Assembly (NCBI RefSeq): GCF_000348945.1 | Contig: NZ_AOCK01000005.1 | Location: 124,001-188,000, forward strand | Reading direction: 5' to 3' | From: Paeniglutamicibacter gangotriensis Lz1y | GTDB taxonomy: Bacteria > Actinomycetota > Actinomycetes > Actinomycetales > Micrococcaceae | Length of the DNA stretch: 64,000 bases | In this document: piece by piece, positions 26,392 to 43,841 of the stretch | Layout: every line of letters begins with the position of its first letter | Position numbering within the stretch: the stretch's first letter is position 1 | Made by a program: the position numbers and the translations under genes | The notes under the pieces: model-generated | What the model was told of the DNA's origin: nothing | The model's database searches: none | Seen by the model: the letters and a program-made list of their open reading frames with translations, nothing else

Positions 26392-26455
26392 AACTTACCG
26401 TCGAGTAAGTTTTTTCCTCAAAACCCTTGCAAACCTACCCGCGAGTAAGTTCAAT
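26392..26455 (+). promoter_or_regulatory. Promoter with two TetR-like operators
   Basis: The gene-free region 26298-26625 holds two related inverted repeats: AACTTAC-N6-GTAAGTT (26392-26411) and AACCTAC-N6-GTAAGTT (26432-26451), 40 bp centre to centre. TTGCAA (26427-26432) and TTCAAT (26450-26455), 17 bp apart, form a likely sigma-70-type promoter with the second operator in its spacer. No matching regulator gene lies next to it. Confidence 0.7.
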
Positions 26456-26625
26456 GGTTCTAGTCCATTCTGTTATCCAGATCACACCCTGACCGCGATT
26501 CTGGCCACACCGGCCGCAGGACCACCCAGCTCCACCGGGCCATGGCGCCTGACGTACTTCGGTGCGCCCAAAATCGCCACGGTCTTCCACCGCACCACCA
26601 ACGATTTCAACCCCAAGGAGTCCAG

Positions 26626-29034
26626 TTGAATGCACATCTGGCGGCCAAGCGGCATACATTGCTGCACGCCATCATCACCGTTTTGCTCGGCCTGTTCCTG
26701 ATCGCCTTCGTGGCTTTCTACGCAATGTTTTCCTCGCAGGTTGCCACCGGCGCCTCCGACTTGAACAACGGCATGGGCAAGGCCAATGACGGCGTAGCCA
26801 AGCTTGCTGACGGTTCCACCTCGGCGGCCTCGGGCGCCGAGGAACTCGCAGCTGGGACAAGCGCCTTGTCCTCCGGCTCGCAGGAACTCGCCGATGGTGC
26901 ACAAAGCGCCGCAGATGGAGCCACCAAGCTGGGCGAGGGCGCAACCTCACTGCATGCCGGCACCTCCAAGCTGTCGGTCGGTGCCCAGGATGCAGCCACA
27001 GGATCTTCCAAACTCGGCCGCGGTGCCGCCGACCTGGCAACCGGAGTGAACAAGCTGGCCACCGGATCCAACTCCGTCGATGCGGCCGCCGGACAGCTCG
27101 ATGCCGGGGCCGGCAAGCTGGCCACCGGGGCCAAGGATGCACAGGTAGGCGCCGATGCGCTCAGTGATGGTTCTTCCAAGCTCGCCACCGGAGCCGGAGA
27201 CCTGGCCGCGGGTACCGCCACCTTGGACGCTGGGGCGAAGTCCCTGAAGGACGGTTCACTGAAACTCTCGGCAGGCATGTCAGAGCTGGGAATTGGAGCA
27301 GGTCAGGCTAACGCCGGCGCTCAGGATCTTTCAGCAGGCGCGCAGCAGGTCGCCACCGGTGCAGGTGCAGCCCATGACGGCGCACAAAAACTCGCCGCCG
27401 GAACCGAAGCGGCCAAGGCTGGAGCCGAGAAGCTCGCCGCCGGCACCACGAGTGCAGCAGCAGGTTCCGACGCGCTGGCCGCAGGAAGTGGCAAGCTCCT
27501 CGGAGGCGTGGAAGAACTAGCCAGCAAGGCCCCTGCCCTGCTTGAAGGCGTAGCCTCCCTGAAAAACGGTTCCGGACAGCTGGCCACCGGCAGCACCAAG
27601 CTGGCCAAGGGAACCAAGTCACTGTCCGCCGCCGCTCCGCAGCTGAGCGAAGGCATCGCCGCCGCCAACCAGGGCGCTGCCGGTGTTCAAACCGGTGCCA
27701 AAAACCTGTCCGCCGGATTGACCGAGGCTGATTCGAAGACCGGAGATCTTACCGACGGATCCACGCGTCTGGCCAAGGGCATGGGCGACCTCGCGGCATT
27801 GATGAAGAAGGACCCGGCCGTCCCCGCCGGTCAGCTGATGGAGAAGATCAATGCGCTCAACGAAGATTCCCAGGAACTCAACGGCGGCATGAAGAAACTG
27901 CATGCCGGTACCACGGAGCTGAAGGCCGGGGCCAAGAAACTTGCCACCGGCAGCGACCAGCTCTCCAAGGGCATGGCAACTCTGAAGTCCAGCACCAAGG
28001 ACCTTCCGGCCCAAACCAGCGCGCTGAACGACGGTGCTCAGGCCTTGAAATCCGGTGCCGCCACGCTTGATGGCGGACTGGGTGAACTCAGCGACGGGTC
28101 AAAGGAACTGGGCCAAGGCATTGGGGCTCTGAAGGCCGGAGCCACCGATCTGAACGCCGGTGCCCAGGACCTCAATTCAGGGCTCGGTGCTCTCGATGCG
28201 GGATTCAATGACAAGAAAAAGGGTCTGATGGCCGGCATGGGCTCATTGGGCAACGGCGCCACGGAACTGGCCGAAGGCACCGATGCGCTGGCCGCCGGCA
28301 CCACCAAGCTCAGCACCGGTGCAGGTTCCTTGGCCACGGGAACGGCATCACTTGAGGACGGAGCAGGCAAGCTCACCAACGGTGCCCAGGATCTGGCCGA
28401 AGGCGGGACTACCCTAGCCACGGGCACCTCAAGCCTGAATGACGGTGCCGGCAAGCTGGATTCCGGTGCGAAGGAACTTGCCGCTGGCGGCAAGAAGCTG
28501 GCTGCCGGGACCGATATGCTCGCCAGCGGAACCGGCGAGCTCAAGGCAGGCACCTCCAAGCTGGCGGCTAACACCCCCGCACTGGCCCAGGGCGCAGAAT
28601 CGGCAGCAGCCGGTGCCGCCAAGATCCAGACCGGTGCCAGCAGCTTGGCGGAAGGAAACGCAAAGCTTGCTCGTGGTGCAGGAGATCTGGACGCCGGGGC
28701 AGCCAAGCTGGCCGGCGGAACCGAAACCCTAGAGTTGGGCCTCGAAGCCCTACGCAAGGGGTCCGGGGATCTCTCCACCGGTGCCGTCCGTCTCGACGAA
28801 GGTGCCACCACGTTGGCCGCGGGCAACTCGGAGCTCGCAAACGGCTTGTCCACGTTGTCCGAGGGCTCTACCCAACTGGCCAGCGGCACCTCGAAGTTGG
28901 AGGCCAGCACGCAAGCGGTTTCTGCGGCCAAGATCAGCAGCGGCCCCAGCGCCCTGTTGCTCTTGATCCCGTTGGCACTGTTGCTGATCCCGGCGCTGAT
29001 CATGGCTCGCAACCGTCGCTACCTCCGCCGCTAA
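26626..29034 (+). CDS. Membrane-anchored xxxLxxG heptad-repeat protein (YhgE/Pip-like rod)
   Basis: 802 residues from a TTG start with AAGGAG five bases upstream. One membrane segment lies at the N-terminus (HTLLHAIITVLLGLFLIAF) and one at the C-terminus (LLLLIPLALLLIPALIM). Between them lie about 730 residues of nearly continuous heptads of the pattern L..G, rich in Ala, Gly, Ser, Asp and Lys, about 100 copies. Only short breaks occur (PAVPAGQLMEKINALNEDS and NDKKKGLMAGM). This heptad is the repeat described in YhgE/Pip proteins (TIGR03057), which normally also carry ABC-2-like membrane domains; here these are absent. Both ends should sit in the membrane with a long extracellular coiled rod. 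Two operators precede it and a strong terminator follows. Function unknown. Confidence 0.9.
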   Translation: MNAHLAAKRHTLLHAIITVLLGLFLIAFVAFYAMFSSQVATGASDLNNGMGKANDGVAKLADGSTSAASGAEELAAGTSALSSGSQELADGAQSAADGATKLGEGATSLHAGTSKLSVGAQDAATGSSKLGRGAADLATGVNKLATGSNSVDAAAGQLDAGAGKLATGAKDAQVGADALSDGSSKLATGAGDLAAGTATLDAGAKSLKDGSLKLSAGMSELGIGAGQANAGAQDLSAGAQQVATGAGAAHDGAQKLAAGTEAAKAGAEKLAAGTTSAAAGSDALAAGSGKLLGGVEELASKAPALLEGVASLKNGSGQLATGSTKLAKGTKSLSAAAPQLSEGIAAANQGAAGVQTGAKNLSAGLTEADSKTGDLTDGSTRLAKGMGDLAALMKKDPAVPAGQLMEKINALNEDSQELNGGMKKLHAGTTELKAGAKKLATGSDQLSKGMATLKSSTKDLPAQTSALNDGAQALKSGAATLDGGLGELSDGSKELGQGIGALKAGATDLNAGAQDLNSGLGALDAGFNDKKKGLMAGMGSLGNGATELAEGTDALAAGTTKLSTGAGSLATGTASLEDGAGKLTNGAQDLAEGGTTLATGTSSLNDGAGKLDSGAKELAAGGKKLAAGTDMLASGTGELKAGTSKLAANTPALAQGAESAAAGAAKIQTGASSLAEGNAKLARGAGDLDAGAAKLAGGTETLELGLEALRKGSGDLSTGAVRLDEGATTLAAGNSELANGLSTLSEGSTQLASGTSKLEASTQAVSAAKISSGPSALLLLIPLALLLIPALIMARNRRYLRR

Positions 29035-29069: not shown

Positions 29070-29114
29070 GGCCGTGGCCCGCACCGAACGTCCCGGTGCG
29101 GGCCACGGCCTTTT
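29070..29114 (+). terminator. Rho-independent terminator of heptad-repeat gene
   Basis: A perfect 17-bp GC-rich stem (29070-29086 with 29094-29110), 7-base loop, followed by TTTT. Confidence 0.95.
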
Positions 29115-42494: not shown

Positions 42495-42867
42495 ATGGGC
42501 ATCGAACAGATGGTCCTGCTCAAGGCCGCAGTGGCGAGCAGGGAGTCTCTTGCCGCCGTCGGGGGAAGACCTCATCGAGGCCGACAAGAACTTCCACCGA
42601 ACCTTCTTTGAACTGCTGGGTAGCCAGCTGCTCAGCAATCCGCCGGGTGCGCTCCGGGATGCTTACTGCACGCTGCACATAAGCATCGGCATCGGCATCG
42701 GCATCAAGGACGAATCCAATCTCCATCTCGCCGAGATCACCCAGGCAAGCCGCGACCCCTTCGAGGAAGTGAAGGCCGGCAACAAGTCACTGGCGAGCGA
42801 ACTACTGAATCGCCATTTCGATGGCTTCCGTGAACAGCTCGCAAGCTTCAACGCATCGGAGTTCTAG
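42495..42867 (+). pseudogene. Remnant of a GntR family (FadR/FCD) regulator
   Basis: Only the effector domain remains. One frame encodes GIEQMVLLKAAVASRESLAA near 42495-42550. After a frame change the next encodes EDLIEADKNFHRTFFELLGSQLL to the stop at 42867, including the FCD metal-site-like pattern and a final helix LNRHFDGFREQL. No DNA-binding domain is present upstream. A (GCATCG) hexanucleotide run at 42683-42705 inserts the odd SIGIGIGIK stretch. Together these point to a frameshifted, truncated regulator gene. Its end overlaps the convergent thioesterase stop by four bases. Confidence 0.65.
42683..42705. repeat. GCATCG hexanucleotide microrepeat
   Basis: Almost four tandem copies of GCATCG, encoding alternating Ile-Gly in the pseudogene frame. 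It is a likely slippage product. Confidence 0.8.
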
Positions 42868-43412
42868 AGCCAGAGATGCGGTGCGGGCTTGCGCGCACCT
42901 GGCAGCGCGGTGTCTTCGCGCCAGCGCGCCACCCAGTCGGGAAGAACCAGGTCCGCCGGGACTTCCACGCCCATCATGGCGAGAATTTCTTCGTTGGACA
43001 CGGGCCCCTTCTTGGAAAGTAGGCGCGTGGCCATGGTCGCCTGGACGTAGATCTCACCGTCGGCCACCATGCGCTGCTCGAAGTAGATGCACTTTTCGTC
43101 CATGCCCAGGATGCGCGTTTCCTGGGTGAATTTCTGGTTGAAGACCACCGATTTGCGGAAGGTGATGGTCTCGGCCTGGACCACCGGGGTCCACTTGTTC
43201 TTCTTCATGACGTCCCACACCCCGGCACGGACCATCAGGTCGAAGCGCCCAAGGTCAAAGAGCGAAAAGTACATGCCGTTATTGATATGGCCGGCCACGT
43301 CGATGTCCGTGATCAGTGCCCTCATGGGTACCGATGAGGTCTCGAACATCGAGAGCTTGGGGCGCTTGCCTGCGGTGGCGAGCAGGAGCAGAAGGCGAAA
43401 AAGTACATGCAT
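42864..43412 (-). CDS. Acyl-CoA thioesterase-like protein (hot-dog fold)
   Basis: 182 residues. A hot-dog thioesterase pattern is clear: DIDVAGHINNGMYFSLFDLGRFDLM (the D..G..NN..Y motif), then QAETITFRKSVVFNQKF and FEQRMVADGEIYVQATMATRL. It resembles the THEM6/YbgC-like 4-hydroxybenzoyl-CoA thioesterase group. A hydrophobic N-terminus (VLFRLLLLLATAG) suggests membrane association. The ATG at 43412 has AGG nine bases upstream; earlier Mets at 43421 and 43454 are less favourable. Nothing adjacent indicates a substrate. Confidence 0.8.
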   Translation of the reverse strand: MHVLFRLLLLLATAGKRPKLSMFETSSVPMRALITDIDVAGHINNGMYFSLFDLGRFDLMVRAGVWDVMKKNKWTPVVQAETITFRKSVVFNQKFTQETRILGMDEKCIYFEQRMVADGEIYVQATMATRLLSKKGPVSNEEILAMMGVEVPADLVLPDWVARWREDTALPGARKPAPHLWL

Positions 43413-43841
43413 AAGCCCCATCCTACTCATGGGTAACTTACTTGTCTGCCACACTTCGAAAAGATAATCATTGACTGGTGCCTATGAGGTCCTTCAAAGT
43501 TGAATCCAAACACCACCGCGCTTCGGTCATTTGCCTAGCGTGACTACCGCATCCTCCTGATGACGATGGCCCTACCCAGCTTTCTCTCGTGACAACCGCG
43601 CCACTAGCAGGCCCGCTGGGATTTATGCTGATCGGAGTCAACACCACGGATCCGATCGGTTGTTTCGCTGGGACAGAAATACCGCGATGTACTCGGGGTT
43701 CATTGGAACAGCGTCGCGGCACCGCCACGGACCGAAGCCTGAGTTGGGCTTTTGAACGCCTGTGGAAAACCTCTGCCAATCACCCCAGGAAGAGGCTACG
43801 ATGGCTGCTAATCGGCACCCAACGAATCGTAGGGACCTGGC
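43413..43841. other. 429-base gene-free region
   Basis: Short open frames exist on both strands (for example 43468-43779) but show no family pattern, signal peptide or ribosome site. I see no hairpin with a T-tract, tRNA or repeat. The region probably holds the promoter of the lipoprotein gene that follows. Confidence 0.4.

Follow-up and report, generated by a model that had tools for sequence, protein, structure and literature searches.

Heptads of the L..G kind are carried by YhgE/Pip proteins (TIGR03061, TIGR03057 and TIGR03062), where an N-terminal membrane helix is followed by an extracellular heptad region. In EsaA and YueB of type VIIb secretion, a long ectodomain capable of spanning the wall lies between the first helix and a C-terminal membrane part (PMC9600267). 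Chemoreceptors (MCPs) extend a cytoplasmic helical hairpin that, according to PMC5907407, varies by symmetric insertions and deletions of seven residues. Here we describe an 802-residue protein, henceforth the rod, which resembles each of these in part. It is encoded in a 64,000-nucleotide stretch of contig NZ_AOCK01000005.1 of Paeniglutamicibacter gangotriensis Lz1y, which we refer to as the window and whose positions are used as coordinates throughout. We find that the rod is a distinct two-helix variant of TIGR03057 repeat proteins (real, conserved and not the product of truncation), that its ectodomain very probably forms an antiparallel hairpin with arms of equal length, and that its gene shares conserved upstream operators with thioesterase-like and FasR-like genes.

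A heptad-repeat protein with one membrane helix at each end

The rod is encoded by an uninterrupted frame of 802 codons on the forward strand, starting with TTG. The features of the gene and protein are as follows.

26626..29034, + strand: rod gene, 802 residues (open frame, hydropathy, TIGR03057, orthologue alignment, ratio of non-synonymous to synonymous substitution rates, dN/dS)
26615..26628, + strand: ribosome site AAGGAG and TTG start (AGGAG and TTG identical in 7 sequences)
26659..26715, + strand: membrane helix 1, residues 12-30 (hydropathy)
26737..27795, + strand: predicted outgoing arm, about 50 heptads (heptad analysis; model helix 6-395)
27796..27870, + strand: predicted tip, the non-heptad stretch LAALMKKDPAVPAGQLMEKINALNE at the midpoint (predicted turn 396-401)
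27871..28947, + strand: predicted returning arm (heptad analysis; model helices 402-456, 460-527, 534-765)
28951..29007, + strand: membrane helix 2, residues 776-794, then RNRRYLRR (hydropathy)
29070..29110, + strand: terminator-like 17-bp stem (-42.7 kcal/mol, z -7.4)

By hydropathy the membrane is crossed at residues 12-30, with K8 and R9 ahead of the segment, and again at 776-794, with RNRRYLRR after it. The ectodomain between these two segments, of 736 residues, is as long as 105 heptads (736/7) and carries heptads of the form GxxxLxx. Within it GxxxLxxG occurs 68 times (mean 2.7 and maximum 9 in 1000 shuffles), 93 glycines have a second glycine 7 residues off, and the glycine phase shows no slip across approximately the first 330 residues. 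TIGR03057 matched the rod in 31 stretches with an E-value of 1.1e-74 and 243.6 bits, against a cut-off of 18.6. A Pfam search of the rod returned no family at cut-off, and the weak matches below it were mostly coiled coils. Matches to SMC, Rad50 and other coiled-coil proteins, obtained alongside TIGR03057, lay far under the cut-offs and were rejected as an effect of composition.

The initial annotation of this DNA, made without database searches, had described a rod of about 100 xxxLxxG heptads with a single membrane helix at each end, in which the repeat is the protein and no transport domain or partner gene is adjacent. The TIGR03057 count (which it had proposed as a check) and the ectodomain length agree with its heptad number, the two hydropathy segments with its helices, and the finding of two helices plus heptads and no ABC-2 domain with its view of the protein as repeat. 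The immediate neighbours of the gene in the window encode Glu_synthase and DAPDH_C proteins (Pfam), neither of which is a transporter. A strong terminator-like stem follows at 29070-29110, and the rod gene therefore looks monocistronic. At its 5' end, AAGGAG occupies 26615-26620; the TTG and AGGAG are invariant in the window and six orthologues, two of which have C in place of the leading A of AAGGAG.

Distribution and conservation of the family

The six orthologues, from genomes named Paeniglutamicibacter or Arthrobacter, align with the rod without gaps at 59-78% identity and retain the TTG start and several of the adjoining genes. The rod gene evolves under purifying selection (dN/dS of 0.14-0.20 in five orthologue pairs). 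A match of precisely 2403 bases in length was present in 13 of the 15 genus genomes drawn, the other two giving weaker matches only.

To follow the family further, we searched Micrococcaceae genomes with a rod profile, which matched 180 of 245 genomes (a count that includes YhgE/Pip proteins). We fetched 40 places, selected for a match reaching to within about 20 positions of either end of the profile, a choice to which the high two-helix share among them is partly due. Together with four loci obtained earlier these gave 44, of which 41 had membrane segments at both ends, with ectodomains of 393-897 residues. Three loci with fewer than two helices (L081, L092 and L095) were excluded from the analysis of geometry, and three others (L087, L094 and L132) had an extra internal hydropathy peak. 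Among 18 further places, L142, L144 and L148 were YhgE-like and L141 and L143 duplicated L080 and L087; all five were left out. The 12 new rods among these 18 are absent from the midpoint test on 41 rods described below and included in a set of 52. As L147 equals L005 in sequence, the set of 56 rods used for operators and the TTG box and the set of 54 used for insertions and deletions (indels) each hold one repeat.

Rod length differs strongly among genera. An order-wide search matched 96 of 297 genomes, and the 29 loci inspected comprised 11 with two helices, 17 with several membrane segments and one (L169) with a single helix; eight of the 11 came from other families (L150, L151, L155, L162, L164, L173, L176 and L178). 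A phylum-wide draw of 346 genomes gave four matches at 1e-40, own genome counted. Orthologues consisting of the repeat and two terminal helices, for which the initial annotation had suggested a search, thus exist. The open-licence papers listed in our literature searches included no description of a two-helix rod.

Given that the heptads match TIGR03057, which is common to YhgE/Pip proteins, the rod gene could be a truncated or decaying YhgE/Pip gene that has lost its ABC-2 membrane part. The initial annotation had itself named this as the outcome that would overturn its interpretation, should all close homologues carry the ABC-2 domain; they do not. We consider truncation extremely improbable: the match has equal length in the 13 genus genomes, the dN/dS values are those of a constrained gene, two-helix rods occur across many genera, and the same genome has a separate, intact YhgE/Pip protein. 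The genome's sole TIGR03061 match lies away from the rod; the protein concerned, encoded on contig C11, has six hydropathy segments and matches ABC-2 families in Pfam. This true YhgE/Pip gene (G000:C11; L039:7590-10801) is preceded by an open reading frame (ORF) that by eye resembles an ABC ATPase; that ORF had no Pfam match at 1e-5. Separately, two genomes (L092 and L095) have an interrupted rod frame, in one of them through a TGA; the L095 contig has runs of N, and an assembly fault is possible.

Equal arms and paired indels in the ectodomain

In an antiparallel hairpin the turn should lie midway and the arms should change length together. To examine the first property, we defined the tip of each rod as its longest heptad-free stretch, picked regardless of position. 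In 38 of 41 rods the centre of the tip fell between 0.45 and 0.55 of the ectodomain, whereas shuffling the order of segments (2000 trials) placed a mean of 5.8 rods and a maximum of 14 in this range. The lengths of the two arms were correlated (r 0.88, slope 0.94), also across 16 genus-level means (r 0.86), and a midpoint tip was found in 46 of the 52 distinct family rods with both helices. The tip often reads like NPAVPxGxLLxKL.

With respect to the second property, equal indels in opposite arms were readable in the alignments of L084/L085 (+42/+42), L074/L077 (+7/+7) and L107/L108 (-21/-21), and another such pair was L106/L107 (+14/+14). Among 40 overlapping pairs with at least 65% identity, 50 of 77 indels (at least 7 residues) were multiples of seven, and 38 of the 77 fell into exact opposite-arm pairs of equal size and sign. 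For 12 disjoint pairs at the same identity, 18 of 23 indels were multiples of seven and 10 were exactly paired. The net changes of the two arms had the same sign in 94 of 122 overlapping pairs (at least 55% identity, with an indel), and paired events tended to occupy mirror positions (rho 0.84, median difference 26 residues, 19 overlapping events). Paired heptad indels can serve as a test of antiparallel pairing that uses sequence only.

We then compared these results with structure prediction, a check that the initial annotation had also proposed. AlphaFold, run on the rod with 24 sequences, returned nearly all helix: residues 6-395, a turn at 396-401, and helices 402-456, 460-527, 534-765 and 776-801. 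In the shorter relative L084 the predicted breaks (149-152, a turn at 267-273, and 386-393) were symmetric about the tip, with a mean predicted local distance difference test (pLDDT) of 67.7 and a predicted template modelling score (pTM) of 0.30. In two Foldseek searches, chemoreceptors accounted for 4 of 5 and for all 5 of the matches at E-values of at most 0.001; the TM scores normalised by query, at most about 0.31, are low and we take them as resemblance only. The predicted helix assignment fits the symmetry test at modest confidence, and the packing of the arms is not established by the models.

Several of the data weigh against an equal-armed hairpin. Six of the 52 family rods have their tip off-centre, at 0.39-0.45, and among the two-helix loci of other families it lies at the midpoint in 5 of 8, the exceptions being L155 (0.42), L176 (0.77) and L178 (0.67). 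Among the 13 unpaired indels of the disjoint set, five are no more than about 50 residues away from the tip, seven are near-equal (30/28) or equal in sum (28+14/42), and one, of 84 residues in one arm only (L078/L079), is unmatched. Net arm changes agree within 3 residues in only 29 of the 122 overlapping pairs and in 9 of 19 disjoint pairs with at least 55% identity, and the mirror position of five disjoint events is not significant (rho 0.7, p 0.19). The rod model is itself of modest confidence (mean pLDDT 68.1, pTM 0.30), and its extra short breaks at 457-459 and 528-533 are unmatched in the other arm.

One alternative is that the ectodomain is a parallel coiled coil, or else extended and disordered. 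Both the low pTM of 0.30 and the six off-centre rods would suit it; midpoint tips, equal paired indels and membrane helices at both ends would not, and we regard it as very unlikely. An antiparallel hairpin with equal arms is, in our assessment, very probably the geometry of the ectodomain. The initial annotation had merely asserted a long hairpin outside the cell with both termini inside. This remains the predicted topology, and the hairpin is now backed by arm symmetry and paired indels, with additional support from the helix predictions.

Conserved palindromes upstream of the rod gene

The region upstream of the rod gene contains two palindromes and a candidate promoter.

26392..26411, no strand assigned: operator 1, AACTTAC-N6-GTAAGTT, FasR-type palindrome (only perfect match in the genome)
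26432..26451, no strand assigned: operator 2, AACCTAC-N6-GTAAGTT, 40 bp downstream of operator 1 (over the candidate promoter spacer)
26427..26455, + strand: candidate promoter TTGCAA-17-TTCAAT, operator 2 between the boxes (second box assigned by eye)

The cores of both palindromes are kept in the genus (7 aligned sequences), and in its own genome the 20-bp pattern, with at most 2 mismatches, occurs upstream of the rod only. In the 330 bases ahead of the gene, 53 of 56 family rods (all except L070, L081 and L092) carry the core TACYNNNNRGTA; for five control palindromes of identical shape the count was 0-2 of the 56. In 29 of the 56, a TTG stands exactly 8 bases ahead of the core, and by eye a T-rich box follows; the fixed offset and the T-rich box suggest that the operator sits over the spacer of a candidate promoter. 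A genome-wide list of operators proved unusable as a regulon, the core being no commoner than its reversed control, and we used only operator sites kept across genera.

The same core recurs at other genes, one of which lies in the window.

43420..43439, no strand assigned: operator-like site with an intact core, differing from the 20-bp pattern at 3 positions (immediately upstream of the likely start of the thioesterase-like gene)
42864..43454, - strand: 4HBT_2 thioesterase-like gene, proposed to be co-regulated (true start likely ATG near 43412)

By eye, the core was directly upstream of 13 of 13 thioesterase-like genes (the window and 12 loci) from four genera; these genes were chosen by sequence pattern within the loci fetched for the rod. 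In its own genome, a TetR gene (L112) adjoins a DUF3107 gene, with the core about 110 bases upstream and a nearby gene that by eye looks like ThiF/MoeB. The closest solved structures to the L112 protein are 6o6p (E 2.4e-45) and 6o6n/6o6o (E 3.4e-43), which we take to be M. tuberculosis FasR. Considering this best PDB match and the DUF3107 neighbour, the L112 TetR appears to be a FasR orthologue. A FasR-like TetR match at E-values of at most 1e-40 was present in 54 of 61 family genomes, and in the 30 of these 54 that were examined the core lay upstream of the fasR-like gene in 19 (controls 0). Operators shared by the rod, thioesterase-like and FasR-like genes go beyond what the initial annotation contained.

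The FasR of M. tuberculosis is an activator. In its co-crystal, one strand of the oligonucleotide starts TACTGGCGAGT, near the core found here, and acyl-CoA of at least C16 removes the protein from DNA (PMC7382501). C. glutamicum FasR represses with acyl-CoA, according to PMC7851686.

The link to FasR has to be set against a number of contrary observations. In its own genome, the core has 25 strand hits and so does the reversed control; it is missing upstream of the fasR-like gene in 11 of the 30 genomes examined, and the fabD locus (L130, 3.8 kb) had no core match. A strict sigma-70 scan of the rod upstream found no promoter. The rods of Cellulosimicrobium-like relatives, which belong to another Micrococcales group (L006, L150, L151, L162, L164 and L169), have a palindrome of another sequence, GTATCAGATAC or TACCTGATAC, which is present once or twice. 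Finally, FasR being a repressor in C. glutamicum and an activator in M. tuberculosis, the direction of regulation here is uncertain. On balance, the conservation of the operators makes it probable that the rod gene is linked to FasR, and it is this conservation that points to regulation of the rod.

A possible role for the rod

We favour, with some reserve, the reading of the rod as a wall-spanning hairpin strut that responds to acyl-CoA. The protein would cross the membrane once per end and pass through the cell wall as a single antiparallel helical hairpin, with a conserved, proline-containing tip at its far end; each arm, of about 360 residues, would measure about 54 nm if fully helical (by arithmetic, at 0.15 nm per residue). 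The arms would pair heptad against heptad, so that their lengths must stay equal and lineages would tune the reach of the tip by equal gain or loss of heptads in both arms. At the rod promoter, a FasR-type TetR protein would bind the two palindromes, one of them between the candidate -35 and -10 boxes; the position of the operator over the promoter suggests repression, and repression by a FasR-type regulator is the most likely mode. If it behaves like M. tuberculosis FasR, the regulator would be released by long-chain acyl-CoA, and the rod would rise together with the thioesterase, which may in turn drain acyl-CoA. The rod would then be an envelope strut, tuned in length and made at acyl-chain surplus, that keeps its tip at a fixed distance from the membrane (at the wall surface or beyond it) in the service of envelope or lipid homeostasis. 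Exposure outside the cell, FasR binding, the direction of regulation and the substrate of the thioesterase are elements that we infer, and the role as a strut or in lipid homeostasis is put forward tentatively.

The initial annotation had suggested a surface spacer, a phage or adhesion receptor, or a mechanical element, and its interpretation as a whole is partly supported. A passive surface role as spacer, adhesin or phage receptor, in which the tip would do the binding and lipid regulation would be incidental, fits the recurrence of the tip as the longest non-heptad part and the strong variation in length among genera. The related YueB and Pip serve phages (PMC4999554 and PMC12474301), and EsaA ectodomains are described as elongated and able to span peptidoglycan (PMC9600267). 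Against this, the FasR-type core stands ahead of 53 of 56 rods despite neighbour genes that differ among genera, and we found no phage or adhesion data; we consider such a passive role unlikely.

Still less likely, in our view, is that the rod acts as a trans partner of an MMPL/RND (resistance-nodulation-division) or YhgE lipid exporter and scaffolds export across the wall. Its own genome does have a YhgE/Pip protein and, by eye, an MMPL-like protein with a heptad-like segment, two Lachnospiraceae loci (L009 and L010) show a secreted-looking heptad protein beside RND-like and TetR-like genes (by eye), and the operator is common to the rod and the thioesterase-like gene. However, no MMPL/RND gene was noticed by eye next to the rod among the neighbourhood maps listed, and the transporters that do adjoin it are not constant: MFS-like (major facilitator superfamily) in L070, L079 and L098-L105, and ABC-like in L005 and L109. 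Nor did these maps yield a constant gene-neighbourhood partner of any kind. The MMPL/RND-like frame (L214; G000:C3:263397-264641) was named by eye from its N-terminal sequence, and its heptad-like segment matches the rod profile. In another arrangement, seen in some loci of four genera (L074, L075, L077, L086, L095 and L107), the rod gene and two dynamin-like GTPase genes are divergently oriented; the GTPase pair of L074 (10551-14008) has Pfam support.

The strut reading also admits a bolder form, of comparably low probability to the exporter model, in which the rod would do outside the cell what the chemoreceptor hairpin does inside. It would be a helical ruler across the wall, anchored at both ends, calibrated in length and made on acyl-CoA surplus, and it would measure a state at its tip, such as strain, a ligand or the thickness of the wall, or transmit it back to the membrane, with mirror-paired gain and loss of heptads as the calibration of each lineage.

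With these results, what was a repeat protein without a known function becomes a family of defined geometry for which a candidate regulator can be named. The rods constitute a natural series of hairpins of differing reach (393-897 ectodomain residues), with which one could probe what the length of a wall-crossing protein must match. A FasR link would connect fatty-acid sensing with a strut at the cell surface in Gram-positive Actinobacteria.

Comparison with known systems

With YhgE/Pip proteins the rod shares the L..G heptads (TIGR03057, 243.6 bits) and an N-terminal membrane helix that leads into an extracellular heptad region. Unlike them, it has neither the TIGR03061 N-terminal domain nor the ABC-2 domain, and two helices rather than about six. 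The long ectodomain between a first helix and a C-terminal membrane part recalls EsaA/YueB, which differ in having several C-terminal helices where the rod has one. No EssB/EssC/EsxA-type genes were seen among the neighbours of the rod, which beyond Glu_synthase and DAPDH_C were judged by eye, with no Ess profile search of the genome.

The putative regulatory arrangement resembles that of FasR (Rv3208) in its operator and in the position of a FasR-like TetR gene next to a DUF3107 gene. The candidate targets here are the rod and the thioesterase-like gene, where the FasR regulon has fas-acpS.

In shape, chemoreceptors come closest: they provide the best Foldseek hits and share with the rod a helical hairpin, a membrane-distal tip and symmetric heptad indels, with equal arms and symmetric indels found in most, not all, rods and pairs. 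The rod differs in that it is predicted to lie outside the cell and to be anchored at both ends, and neither Pfam nor NCBIfam matched an MCP signalling domain in it. The likeness is one of shape and not of kinship, and paired indels presumably arise in both for the same geometric reason.

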